64,000 bases of DNA from Flavobacteriales bacterium (lineage in GTDB: Bacteria; Bacteroidota; Bacteroidia; Flavobacteriales_D; Crocinitomicaceae). The position numbers and the translations under genes are program-made. Below, one piece after another: positions 1-39,366 of the stretch. The notes under the pieces are model-generated. The model worked only from the letters and a program-made list of their open reading frames with translations, did no database searches and was not told where the DNA came from. How positions within the stretch are numbered: the stretch's first letter is position 1; each line of letters opens with the position of its first letter. The DNA lies in NCBI GenBank assembly GCA_013373595.1, contig JABXHO010000021.1, positions 62,001-126,000 of the forward strand, read 5' to 3'.

Positions 1-2262
1 TACCGTCCAGGTATTTCTGAAGAGTACTTTTCTAACCCAGACGCTAACCCTTTCAGAAGCTTGGATAAAATTCAAGAGTTGAACGGTTTGAGAAATGGTG
101 ATGTTCCTTTGAGTGTTTATGATATTTGGAGCAACATTGGTAGTCCGTTTAACTACTTTGAGAGAACTGAAAACGATCAGTTCCGTGTTACAGGTTCTGG
201 TTCTGTTAATATCGGCGACCACGCTTTGTCTCTAGGATTTGAGTATGAGCAACGTTGGGATAGAAGCTGGAGATCAGGAACAACAACAAATGGTAACGGA
301 AACGGACCAATCAGTATTTGGAGAATTGCTCGTCAGTTAACGAACTTCCATATTGATGAATTAGATACTTCATCTGCGTACGTTTCGGATTCTGGATCTT
401 ACAAGCGTGTTACTTACGATCGTTTGAACACGGGATATGCTAGCCAATCAGGAACTGGACAATACGGTGGAGCGTTGAATAACGATAACCAATCATTCTT
501 CGATTACAACCTACGTGAATACCTTCACGAAAATGGATGGATCGGTACAGGTGGAGATGGTAGCGAGTTTATCGATATCGACCGTTATGATCCAAGTATC
601 TACTCATTTGATATGTTCTCGCCAGACGAGTTGTTGAATGGTGGTAACTCATACGTGTCATACTGGGGATACGATCATACAGGTAAGAAAGTGAGAGGTA
701 ACACTGATATCAATAAGTACTTTAACGAATTTGATGAAAACGGAAACTACAAGCGTTTCGTAGGTGCCTTCCAACCAATTTACATGGCAGGTTACATTAT
801 GGATAAGTTTGCATTCCGCGATATCGTATTCAACGTTGGTGTTCGTGTTGACGTTTTCGACGCCAACCAACCAGTATTGAAAGATCCATGGTTGTTCTAC
901 TCAGCGAGAACTGTTGCTGAAGCGAAAACAGAGCTTTCAAACGATCCTACTAAAACGTGGATTGACATTCCAGACGCAATGGGAGATGATTACGTAGTAT
1001 ATGTTGATGACGTAAACAACCCAGGAAATATTAAAGGTTTCCGTTCAGGTCAAGTTTGGTACGATGCAAACGGTGTTGAAACTGAAGATCCAACTGAATT
1101 GAGAGGTGCAGCAGGTATTCAACCGTATTTGACTCAAAAGGGTCTTGAAGCATGGAACAAAGGAACGCCAATCGCAGATGCATTTGAAGATTATAGAGCG
1201 CAGGTTAATGTAATGCCTCGTATTTCATTCTCTTTCCCTATCTCTGATGAAGCAGCGTTCTTCGCTCACTACGATATCTTGACAAAACGTCCAACTTCTG
1301 GATTCCGTTTTGACCCATTCCAATACCAATTCGTGAACGAAAGAAGTGCGATTATCAATAACGCTAACTTGAAACCAGAAACAACAGTTGATTACGAACT
1401 TGGTTTCCAACAAGTGTTGACGAAGACTTCTTCATTGAAAATTGCAGCATTCTACCGTGAGCAAAGAAACAACGTTCAGTTGATGAACATCTTCGAAGCG
1501 TATCCTTCAACGTACAGAACTTACGGAAACCGTGACTTCGGAACAGTTAAAGGGATGACAGTTGAGTACGATATGCGTCGAACTGGAAACTTAAGATTGA
1601 GAGCTAACTATACATTGCAGTTTGCTGATGGAACTGGTTCAGATGCAACATCTGCGGCAGGACTTGTAAACGCAGGGCTTCCTAACTTAAGAGCAATCTT
1701 TCCATACTCATTTGATCAGCGTCATGCATTTGCAATAACAGCAGATTACCGATATGGTTCTGGAAAAGATTACAACGGTCCTAAGATTAAGGATGTTGCA
1801 ATTTTTGAGAACACAGGATTGAACGTAGTTACAAATATTTACTCTGGTTCGCCATATTCAGCTCAAACATCTATTACAAACGAAGGACAGTTCAGCCCAC
1901 TTAACGCAGGTTTGGACGGAACAACAAACGGTTCTCGTTTGCCATGGTCTTACCGATTGGATTTGCAATTGGATAGAACATTCGATTTAGAGCTTGGTAA
2001 GGAAGGAAAGAAGAAAGCTACATTCTTGAATGTATACTTGCGTGTAACTAACCTATTCAACCAATTTAACGTGTTGAACGTGTACCGTGCAACGGGTAAC
2101 CCTGATGATGACGGGTTCTTGGCTGCAGCGGCAAGTCAAACTTCAATTCAGAATCAGTTGGATGAGCAATCATTCAGAGATTACTACAACTTGAAAATTG
2201 ACAATCCATTCAACATCAGTTCGCCAAGAACGATCCGTTTGGGAGTTAAATTTGATTTTTAA
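1..2262 (+). CDS. TonB-dependent receptor, C-terminal part (5' truncated by window)
   Basis: The frame is open from base 1, so the gene starts outside the window and the TTG at 61 is not its start. About 750 residues remain. They are rich in aromatic/Gly/Asn beta-strand segments, contain the 'LKPETTVDYELGFQQ' pattern typical of TonB-dependent receptor barrels (around residue 460) and end in aromatic FDF, the usual C-terminus of an outer-membrane beta-barrel. The plug and TonB box are not visible. Family knowledge: such proteins import bulky substrates across the outer membrane using TonB/ExbBD energy. The stop is followed after 21 bp by a giant T9SS cargo gene and then a PorV-like gene, which suggests one operon. 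The substrate cannot be told from sequence. Confidence 0.88.
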   Translation, partial: YRPGISEEYFSNPDANPFRSLDKIQELNGLRNGDVPLSVYDIWSNIGSPFNYFERTENDQFRVTGSGSVNIGDHALSLGFEYEQRWDRSWRSGTTTNGNGNGPISIWRIARQLTNFHIDELDTSSAYVSDSGSYKRVTYDRLNTGYASQSGTGQYGGALNNDNQSFFDYNLREYLHENGWIGTGGDGSEFIDIDRYDPSIYSFDMFSPDELLNGGNSYVSYWGYDHTGKKVRGNTDINKYFNEFDENGNYKRFVGAFQPIYMAGYIMDKFAFRDIVFNVGVRVDVFDANQPVLKDPWLFYSARTVAEAKTELSNDPTKTWIDIPDAMGDDYVVYVDDVNNPGNIKGFRSGQVWYDANGVETEDPTELRGAAGIQPYLTQKGLEAWNKGTPIADAFEDYRAQVNVMPRISFSFPISDEAAFFAHYDILTKRPTSGFRFDPFQYQFVNERSAIINNANLKPETTVDYELGFQQVLTKTSSLKIAAFYREQRNNVQLMNIFEAYPSTYRTYGNRDFGTVKGMTVEYDMRRTGNLRLRANYTLQFADGTGSDATSAAGLVNAGLPNLRAIFPYSFDQRHAFAITADYRYGSGKDYNGPKIKDVAIFENTGLNVVTNIYSGSPYSAQTSITNEGQFSPLNAGLDGTTNGSRLPWSYRLDLQLDRTFDLELGKEGKKKATFLNVYLRVTNLFNQFNVLNVYRATGNPDDDGFLAAAASQTSIQNQLDEQSFRDYYNLKIDNPFNISSPRTIRLGVKFDF

Positions 2263-2283
2263 TTTATTCATAAGAGATTTATT

Positions 2284-5200
2284 ATGAAAAAGCAACTAAT
2301 AGCAATTACCTTGGGAGCCACTGCACTATTGTGGTCGAATGAAGCGCTCTCTTATTATGGTCCAAATGACCATAGTGGAATCAGCCAAGGGAATACAGGA
2401 AATGCATCTTCGTCTCAGGCGAAGGGTGCGAATTGTGCTCCGTCAACAGCTAGATTGACGATGGAGTTCAACGATGTAAGTGCATTTATTGAGCAAGGAG
2501 GTAGTATGTTCCAGAACCGTCAGGATGGAACTGCGGCATATGAAATTCCAAAAGGAAGTGGTTTGAAAGCAATTTTCGCTGGAGCCCTCTGGATGGGAGG
2601 TACGGATGTAAACGGTCAATTGAAATTGGCTGCAGTTCGTTACCGTACAGGAAATGATTTCTGGCCTGGACCGCTTTCAGTAGATCCAAGTTCTGGAAAT
2701 TACAATCCGAATGCACCTGTTGGTGATGATGCGGTACGTCCATTTGGAGGTGCTACAATCGAGCCAGGACAGTGTATTAAATATGATGAATTTTACACAA
2801 TCCGTAAAGCAGAAGTAATTCAGTTCAATATCTGGTGGGAATGTTCAAACGGTGTTGCAACTGAAGGTTGTGACGATGTTCAACAACCTTCAGCAGATGT
2901 TTTGAACCGTATCTACAACTGGCCAGCTCACGGTGATGATATCCAATTTCAACAAGATTACTACTTGGCACCGTTCTACGATCGCGATGGTGATGGAACT
3001 TACGATCCAATTGGTCAAGGAGATCATCCATGGTATGATGATATCTTAGGACGAAATGATATCATTTGTGGTGTCGACAGAAGAATCTCACTTTTCGGTG
3101 ATGAAACGCACTGGTGGGTATTTAACGATAAAGGAAATATTCACACGGAAACGGGTGGTGATCCAATCGGAATGGAAATTCGTGCACAGGCGTTCGCCTT
3201 CGCAACAACGGATGAAGTAAACCGTATGACTTTCTATAACTACGAGTTGATTAACCGTGGTACGCAAACTCTATTTAATACTTATTTCTCTCAATACCTT
3301 GATGCGGATATAGGTAACTTCTCAGATGATTACGCAGGATGTGATGTTTCTAGAGGTCTTGGTTACATGTTCAATGGAGACTTGAATGACGAAACAAACG
3401 CTGGTAACACTGGTTATGGTGAAAATCCACCAGCAATCGGGGTAGACTTCTTCGAAGGACCTTACCAAGATGCCGATCAAAAGGATAACGTGGGGCCATA
3501 CTTCGATACAATTTTAGATTCTTTGATTACTCCTACAGTTGCAGAAGCGCTGAATGACGGAGGTATTGTTTACCAAGGAATTGGTGTTGGATATGGTGAT
3601 GGATTCCCTGACAATGAGCGTTACGGAATGCGTGGATTTACATACTACACAAGTACTGCTCCAGGAACACAGTCGGATCCGACATCTGCAGCTCAGTACT
3701 ACAACTACATGCAAGGTCTTTGGAGATTTGGAGATGAGACGTATTTTGGTGGAACTGGATTCCCAGGATCTACTGGTGTAACAAACATCGAGTCTGATTA
3801 CATGTTCCCTGGAGATTCTGATCCATTACACTGGGCAACTGCAGGTATTGATCCTGGATTTGAGTGGGATGAAGCAACAGATAACAACCCAGCAGGTGAC
3901 CGTCGTTTCGTTCAGTCAGCTGGACCGTTTACATTGACGCCAGGTGCGGTTAACAACATTACTGTTGGTATCGTTTATGGACGTGGTACGGAAGGAAACT
4001 TGTTCTCGTCTGTAGACGCAATGAAAAGAGCGGATACTAAAGCACAAGCACTTTTCGATGCATGTTTCGCAATCTTAACACCACCAGATGCTCCAAAATT
4101 GACAATTCAAGAATTGGAAAATCAATTGGTATTGACAATTGAGAACCCTGTAACATCAAACAACTACCTCGAGCAATATGCAGAGGAGGATAAAGTGAAC
4201 ATTACTGATCCAACTCTTGACCGTGTTTATACATTCGAAGGTTACCAAATCTATCAGTTGCTTGATGAAGCAACAGGTGTATCTGATTTGGATGATCCAG
4301 AGAAAGCTCGTTTGGTAGCACAATGTGATATCGAAAATGACATCGATAGAATTATCAACTTCGAATTTGATGATGAACTTGGTTTCGCTGTTCCAGTTGA
4401 AAGAGTGGATGGAGAAAACAAGGGTATTCGTCACTCATTCTTAGTGACAGAAGATGCATTTGCTCAAGGTGAACGTGCTTTGGTTAACCACAAAACATAT
4501 TACTATGTTGCGGTTGCCTACGCTCACAACGAATTTAAGAAGTACGATCCAACAGATGCATTGTCTTTGGACGGACAAAAGATTCCTTACATCTCTTCTC
4601 GTTTGAGTTTTGATGGTACATCGATTAAATCAGTAGCTGCGGTTCCTCATAACCCAATGCCTGAAGCAGATGGTACAGGTCAAAAAATCGAATACGGTTC
4701 AAGTCCAAGAATTACACGTCTTGATGGACATGGAAATGGTGGAAATGACCTCAAGTTGACACAAGCTTCGAAAGATTTCATTGTGGCAAACGGAGTGATG
4801 GACACACCAACATATGAGTATGGAAGAGGTCCTTTGAACATTAAAGTGATCGATCCATTGAATGTTGAAGATGGTTATTTTGAATGTGTATTCAAAGACT
4901 ACGCAATTAGCCCAACATTTAACGCTGCAGATACTGCATCTTGGGTGATCAATCGATATGATAAGCTAGGAGGTACTTTACTTGATTCTGTTGAGTCTGA
5001 GTTTACTATTCAGTTCAACAATGAACAATTGATTCCTCAATGGGGTATCTCAGTTCAAATTCAACAACAACCATACTTCTTGACTGACTTGACAGGAGGT
5101 GGTGTAATTGCTCCTTATTCAACGGATGTACTTCGATCTGACATCTACTATGAAGATAGTTCTAAACGTTGGTTGTCTGGTGTTCAAGATAACGATGGGT

Positions 5201-38184: not shown

Positions 38185-39153
38185 TTAATGTGAATCAATC
38201 AATTCTATCTGGGAACACTTAAAATGTCCTTTGGGACAGGCTTTGTGTCCGTGAATGCCACAAGGACGACAATCCAGACCTTCGACTTGAAGAATTTTCG
38301 AGTCGTCAGATAATGGACCAAATCCAAAATCGGGAATGGTAGAACAGAAGAAGGCCGTTACGTTGGCATTCATACTTGACGCTAGATGAAGTGGTCCCGA
38401 ATCATTCACAAAAGAACGCGTAGCTGATTTCATCAATGCGGCCGATTGCAATAGACTGAGCCTTCCCGCCAAATTCTCGATGTTTTCATGTGTAGATTGC
38501 TCTATGATGACATCTCCGAGTTCTTTATCTGAAGGAGCACCAAGCACATAAATTGTCGAATCGGATTCGAGCGTATGCGTCAATTCTACCCATTTTTCCG
38601 CAGGAAGTTGCTTGGTAAACCACACCGAAGCAGGTGCGATACAGTAATAATTCTCTTTAACAAAAGGTTGAATGACATCGAAGTCTTTCTGAGAAGGAAA
38701 TAATTCAGGGCGAACCTTTTTTTCTGCACCAAACTCGGAAATAACGGATAGATTTCGCTCTACTTCATGTGTTCCATCTCCAATTTTGTGATCGAAGCGC
38801 TTAGTGTATAGAAATGAAAATGGATTCTTCCGAAAACCATAGCGTTTTTTCCCTTTGGAGAGAGCAGTGATAAGTCCAGAGCTTCCAAAACGGTGAAGGT
38901 TAATCACCAAATCGTAGTTGTTCTGACGAAACTCTTTGATCAATCCAAAAATGGCTTTCCACTTTCCATTCGACTTATTCAAAACGAATAGCTCGTGCAA
39001 ATGCGGATTATTTAGTAGGAGTGACTCATTCCCTTTCTTCACAAGTATGTCCAATTCCGCGCCTGGAAATAGTCGTTTCAACTCGCTTAAAACGGGGGTG
39101 GCAAGAATGACATCGCCCAAAAAAGCCGTTTGTATAACAAGAATTCGTTTCAC
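38185..39153 (-). CDS. Glycosyltransferase family 9 (heptosyltransferase-like)
   Basis: 322 aa. 'ILVIQTAFLGDVILATPVLSELKRLFP' is the GT9 N-terminus; 'NLHRFGSSGLITALS' and 'FVNDSGPLHLASSMNANVTAFF' (the NDSGPxHLA donor site) are typical of ADP-heptose:LPS heptosyltransferases. The C-terminus has a Cys cluster, 'CRPCGIHGHKACPKGHFKC', often seen in this subfamily. It probably builds LPS core or another surface glycan. Monocistronic, divergent from satD; its promoter would lie within or beside the operator array. Confidence 0.9.
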   Translation of the reverse strand: MKRILVIQTAFLGDVILATPVLSELKRLFPGAELDILVKKGNESLLLNNPHLHELFVLNKSNGKWKAIFGLIKEFRQNNYDLVINLHRFGSSGLITALSKGKKRYGFRKNPFSFLYTKRFDHKIGDGTHEVERNLSVISEFGAEKKVRPELFPSQKDFDVIQPFVKENYYCIAPASVWFTKQLPAEKWVELTHTLESDSTIYVLGAPSDKELGDVIIEQSTHENIENLAGRLSLLQSAALMKSATRSFVNDSGPLHLASSMNANVTAFFCSTIPDFGFGPLSDDSKILQVEGLDCRPCGIHGHKACPKGHFKCSQIELIDSH

Positions 39154-39269: not shown

Positions 39270-39345
39270 TATCTGCTATTTTACCGATATTTTAAATTAT
39301 CGGCTTTTTAACCGATATTCTTGTTTATCTGCTTTTTATCCGATA
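39270..39345. repeat. Three 20-bp imperfect palindromes at exact 28-bp spacing upstream of satD
   Basis: Copies at 39270-39289 (TATCTGCTATTTTACCGATA), 39298-39317 (TATCGGCTTTTTAACCGATA) and 39326-39345 (TATCTGCTTTTTATCCGATA). The middle one has perfect 6-bp arms TATCGG/CCGATA; the outer two have one arm mismatch. Start-to-start spacing is 28 bp twice. The last copy ends 21 bp before the satD ATG, so occupancy should block its transcription or initiation. Likely operators for the SatD winged helix (inference). Confidence 0.8.
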
Positions 39346-39366
39346 TTTTAGTGGAAATCGAAAGAA

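Follow-up and report, generated by a model that had tools for sequence, protein, structure and literature searches.

Genes at the satD locus

The window analysed in this work, a stretch of 64,000 nucleotides from a Flavobacteriales bacterium, carries a homolog of satD, a gene for a DUF3307 membrane protein and, ahead of satD, three palindromic sites (Table 1).

Table 1. Features of the satD locus (positions are those of the window)
Feature	Position	Strand	Description	Basis
GT9 heptosyltransferase-family gene	38185..39153	-	divergent; not part of the system; neighbour not conserved	
Operator 1	39270..39289	.	TATCTGCTATTTTACCGATA	sequence, motif count compared with shuffles
Operator 2	39298..39317	.	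TATCGGCTTTTTAACCGATA; half-sites perfect	sequence, motif count compared with shuffles
Candidate -33 element, TTG of TTCTTG	39321..39323	+	in the gap separating operator 2 from operator 3; relatives have TTTG there	
Operator 3	39326..39345	.	TATCTGCTTTTTATCCGATA; between both inferred promoter boxes	sequence, promoter of relatives
Candidate -7 element	39344..39351	+	TATTTTAG; one mismatch to TAnnTTTG; shares two bases with the end of operator 3	
satD homolog, 203 aa	39367..39978	+	N-terminal nucleotidyl-cyclase/GGDEF-fold domain and C-terminal winged helix (recognition helix 171-180)	
DUF3307 membrane protein, 239 aa	39966..40685	+	start overlaps the end of satD; same operon	

The SatD family (PF16264) is known from the sat operon of Streptococcus mutans, whose genes are linked to acid stress. 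The window protein had no Pfam match at E ≤ 1 and thus did not reach PF16264, whereas 11 of 13 aligned homologs matched the family, and the alignment was full-length. The window SatD shares 38-54% identity with its homologs, most of which matched HTH_24 or MarR_2. In the AF2 model (pLDDT 92.5) the C-terminal part of the window protein forms helices 142-153, 159-165 and 171-180, the last one in the position of a recognition helix. The Pfam matches of the homologs and the predicted helices bear out the winged helix that the preliminary description had assigned to SatD.

The best structural matches of the N-terminal domain had Z scores of 9.2 and 9.0, with alignments of about 110 residues, and the comparison with the adenylyl cyclase Ma1120 gave E 1.9e-4. 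Among the top 50 chains of the structural comparison, nearly all were cyclases, GGDEF domains, Cas10/Cmr2 or GTP cyclohydrolase III, and a few were pieces of Y-family polymerases. A sequence search of the PDB returned weak matches only, mostly to HTH proteins. SatD thus has a fold in common with class III nucleotidyl cyclases, GGDEF domains and GTP cyclohydrolase III, from which it differs by the fusion of this domain to a winged helix; the likeness consists of the fold and of D8 and D44, the two invariant Asp residues of the domain. On the basis of this fold a nucleotide is the likely signal of SatD, and nucleotide sensing is its likely candidate function.

Two sets of relatives were used: a first set of 94 loci, which is biased to close relatives, and 89 loci added from a phylum-wide sample. 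In the first set DUF3307 followed satD directly in 93 of the 94 loci, with mostly overlapping ends. In the phylum sample a SatD match was found in 105 of 392 genomes, and also in 94 of the 99 genomes with DUF3307. The pair is near-obligate but patchy. In the DUF3307 protein H41, H70, D74, D93 and H97 are invariant, H12 and H45 nearly so, and these residues lie in predicted helices, which suggests a metal or hydrolase site in the membrane; a fold search of the PDB with DUF3307 gave no match. No flanking gene was conserved beyond single lineages. It had been proposed that the GT9 gene, whose start is about 117 bp from the array, may be co-controlled. This is not supported: of the 94 loci, that of this genome is the only one where GT9 adjoins satD, and it is the promoter of satD that the array overlaps.

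The three-site array and its conservation

Each of the three 20 bp sites has the form TATCkGC-N7-CCGATA, and the start-to-start distances are 28 and 28 bp, so that 28-nt direct repeats are visible in the array. The gap inside the sites and the gap between them are both 8 bp long, so that half-sites of the forms TATCkG and CCGATA follow each other in alternation at 14 bp intervals, a detail that the preliminary description does not mention. The pattern TATCKGC-N(4-10)-CCGATA had three exact matches in the 64 kb, compared with 0.01 (sd 0.10) expected from shuffled sequences. The relaxed form TATCNG-N8-CNGATA was found at five places in the 4.69-Mb genome (read backwards, at two). Three of the five are those of the array, which means that in this genome the satD promoter has the motif essentially to itself. 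The array ends 21 bp before the ATG of satD (39367). At 10.5 bp per turn the 28 bp pitch corresponds to 2.67 turns, and three sites to 84 bp or 8.0 turns. The coordinates of the sites, the 21 bp distance and a period of about 2.7 helical turns had all been given correctly in the preliminary description.

Palindrome arrays were fitted to upstream regions of satD with the period left free between 22 and 36 and the spacer left free, and the fits were compared with shuffles of each region. In 156 of the 182 regions, which were not dereplicated and include a few genomes twice, the array fitted better than all shuffles. The period in these 156 was 28 in 134 and 29 in 22, with no other value, whereas of 82 control windows 7 gave a fit, and their periods were scattered. 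The preliminary description had named the absence of similar arrays ahead of other satD genes as an outcome that would refute it; such arrays are present ahead of most of the satD genes considered. Autocorrelation over 83 dereplicated upstream regions gave z=38 at lag 28 and z=23 at lag 56; in a control region 450-600 bp upstream only multiples-of-three lags (9, 12 and 24) appeared, as in coding DNA. Half-site distances in the relatives showed a sharp peak at 14 bp, with counts of 206 and 151 compared with 29 and 48 for the peaks that follow. Three sites per array were found in 103 of 137 loci, and the maximum was nine. The array is kept ahead of satD homologs that are 40-60% identical, although the letters of the operators have changed. 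Twelve homologs of one family (f29) keep DUF3307 and had no detectable array, and thereby offer a comparison for the regulation of the pair; some homologs outside f29 also had no detectable array.

In the lineages with the 29 bp period there are 8 bp inside the sites and 9 bp between them. The spacing is thus not absolute, as the pitch of some clades differs by 1 bp from that of others. A uniform 14 bp polymer with two identical interfaces, which was considered as a model of the assembly, is weakened by these unequal gaps.

TAnnTTTG is the -7 box of Bacteroidota promoters. It begins at base 19 (offset 18) of the last site in 32 of 137 relatives, where about 0.1 would be expected for any one offset; other loci have it at related offsets. 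In the consensus of the relatives TTTG stands 19 bp before TAnnTTTG, in the gap that separates the last site from the one before it; the -7 box of the window itself is one base off the consensus. Since the last site fills the space between the promoter boxes, SatD bound there would occlude the promoter, which favours autorepression.

The satD-DUF3307 pair was also found as plasmid cargo in Gammaproteobacteria, several copies having arrays with a period of 28 or 29 bp. A plasmid pair of Vibrio lentus has three TTAGCC/GGCTAA sites at 28 bp, a plasmid pair of Enterobacter kobei two sites at 29 bp, and a Pseudoalteromonas plasmid (where satD alone was considered) two sites at 28 bp. A viral contig has an array at 29 bp, and no array was seen at a Sphingomonas copy. 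On a Sphingomonas insulae plasmid the pair (positions 2238-3546) adjoins a gene carrying the annotation 'Pycsar system effector'. In very small E. coli/Klebsiella plasmids (pEC34A, NC_019077.1, 3,770 bp; NZ_LR890364.1, 4,424 bp) the pair is the chief cargo outside the backbone. It accounts for most of the coding sequence outside the backbone of the 3.77-kb E. coli plasmid, and Klebsiella records of the same length carry the gene too. Two AACC..GGTT palindromes, 29 bp apart, are found upstream of the pair on these small plasmids; the array of the 3.77-kb plasmid is weak, its two palindromes having been seen by eye and not being significant in the shuffle test. A search of a phage collection with the plasmid type of SatD found nothing.

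Operator letters and the recognition helix

The TAT/ATA ends and the pitch are constant, while the inner letters of the operators vary between lineages (TATCGG, TATCGT, TATCTG, TATTAG, TATAAG, TATATG, TATTCC, TATTAC, TATACT, TATATC and others). Of the SatD columns, residue 176 had the highest mutual information with bases 4-5 of the operator, and residues 170, 173 and 177 were near the top. A greedy comparison of sister pairs was replaced by a test on a tree, because the pairs that differed in their motif were just those of greater divergence. The tree was that of the SatD N-terminal domain alone, and 203 columns were scored for changes coinciding with changes in the operator. Residue 170 ranked first: 19 of the 35 changes of bases 4-5 coincided with its changes (p=1.8e-9), and residue 176 (p=1.5e-5) came ahead of the remaining columns, both p values being derived by parsimony with the branches treated as independent. 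Columns 185, 138, 137 and 162 co-changed as well, ranking after 170 and 176; these may be structural or ancestral, and part of the co-variation signal may therefore reflect shared ancestry. For changes at operator position 6 the recognition helix was not ranked first.

Residues 170, 173 and 176, which map to the predicted winged helix (AF2, pLDDT 92.5), predicted operator bases 4-5 correctly in 69% of cases among homologs less than 65% identical, compared with 45% for guessing the majority and, for random residue triples, 32% on average and 40% at most. The following correspondences were found: T or S173 with E176 goes with TATCG, N173 with E176 with TATCTG, N173 with Q176 with TATTAG, K176 with TATTCC or TATTAC, I176 with TATACT, and K170 with TATATG. 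As far as can be judged from sequences, this co-variation is the strongest evidence that SatD would read its own array.

SatD as a putative autorepressor

The conservation of the array, its fixed pitch, the co-variation with the helix, the overlap with promoter boxes and the operon pairing are established computationally. The interpretation that we consider very probable is that the array is the operator of SatD, and that SatD is a sequence-specific autorepressor of satD-DUF3307 which binds as regularly spaced dimers. The C-terminal winged helix would contact the palindromes, one dimer occupying each 20 bp site, and adjacent dimers would be kept at the 28 bp pitch (29 bp in some lineages), probably touching each other. 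A dimer on the last site, in the promoter spacer, would block RNA polymerase and repress the operon. With its N-terminal cyclase-fold domain SatD would probably sense or process a nucleotide and in this way set the level of the DUF3307 membrane protein. With three sites spanning 8.0 turns, the dimers would wind around the helix. The homologs with no detectable array, the 1 bp difference in pitch among clades, the co-change of further columns, the result for operator position 6 and the inexact -7 box of the window count against the autorepressor interpretation. Of the cooperative autoregulation suggested in the preliminary description, the autoregulation is strongly supported by the conservation of the array across Bacteroidota and on some gammaproteobacterial plasmids and by the co-variation of the helix. 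Cooperativity is the weaker part: the dimers probably cooperate, as the constancy of the pitch, and that alone, suggests.

That SatD physically binds the array is what we infer from the co-change of the operator letters with its own recognition helix. A binding protein cannot be named by sequence alone, and the sites could in principle belong to another regulator acting on satD from outside. Such a regulator is quite improbable in view of this co-change, of a motif essentially confined to the satD promoter and of flanking genes conserved only within lineages. We also infer that SatD represses the operon rather than activates it. Two of the three sites are upstream of the -33 box, a common position for activators, but the last site lies in the -33/-7 spacer and the -7 box begins inside it in 32 of 137 loci, which is the geometry of a repressor; activation from the array is accordingly unlikely, if less so than an outside regulator.

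Two of the palindromes were flagged as terminator-like stem-loops, and the palindromes might act as RNA hairpins of an attenuator or terminator-like element instead of DNA sites. The inferred transcription start, however, is beyond or within the last site, so that most copies would not be transcribed, and hairpins would leave the invariance of the TAT/ATA ends, the fixed pitch and the co-variation with the protein unexplained. This makes the hairpin explanation very unlikely. Chance, or a functionless repeat expansion of the kind of degenerate iterons or CRISPR-like repeats, has in its favour the visible direct repeats; its probability is close to nil, as the array is kept at 40-60% SatD identity with changed letters and the controls lack such periods.

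Autoregulation by SatD would have well-known parallels. Lambda CI/Cro, MetJ, the Omega repressor and ArgR are cooperative autorepressors with evenly spaced operators. The SatD array resembles them in the use of repeated palindromes over the promoter, and differs in its 28/29 bp pitch of non-integral turns, in half-sites every 14 bp and in the cyclase-fold sensor domain of the protein. The open-access texts that were searched presented SatD only as an acid-tolerance gene; a role as a regulator, or an operator, was not found in them, and regulation was not found treated in those mentioning DUF3307 or 'SatD family'. In Streptococcus pyogenes satD was described as essential although accessory (PMC11323703); an antitoxin-like regulator would fit this description, which may serve as a lead.

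Like Pycsar, the SatD-DUF3307 pair combines a cyclase-fold protein with a membrane protein, and like type II toxin-antitoxin systems it is an apparently autoregulated mobile pair. Unlike these systems, it gave only weak HTH-type matches in PADLOC, none of them convincing to a defence family, and the likeness is one of architecture and mobility. It is conceivable, if doubtful, that SatD-DUF3307 is a mobile module comparable to toxin-antitoxin or cyclic-nucleotide defence systems, in which a chain of SatD, set at a fixed pitch around its own promoter (84 bp or 8 turns for three sites), silences a harmful DUF3307 protein until a change in a nucleotide signal releases it.

For the poorly characterised SatD family, these results would provide a concrete molecular role, binding sites and a code relating three residues to operator letters. 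They suggest that a repressor can have a domain of the nucleotidyl-cyclase fold as its sensor, and they offer a handle on DUF3307, the near-obligate membrane partner of SatD. The 28/29 bp pitch, which persisted through many changes of the operator letters, speaks for a defined higher-order assembly of protein and DNA.
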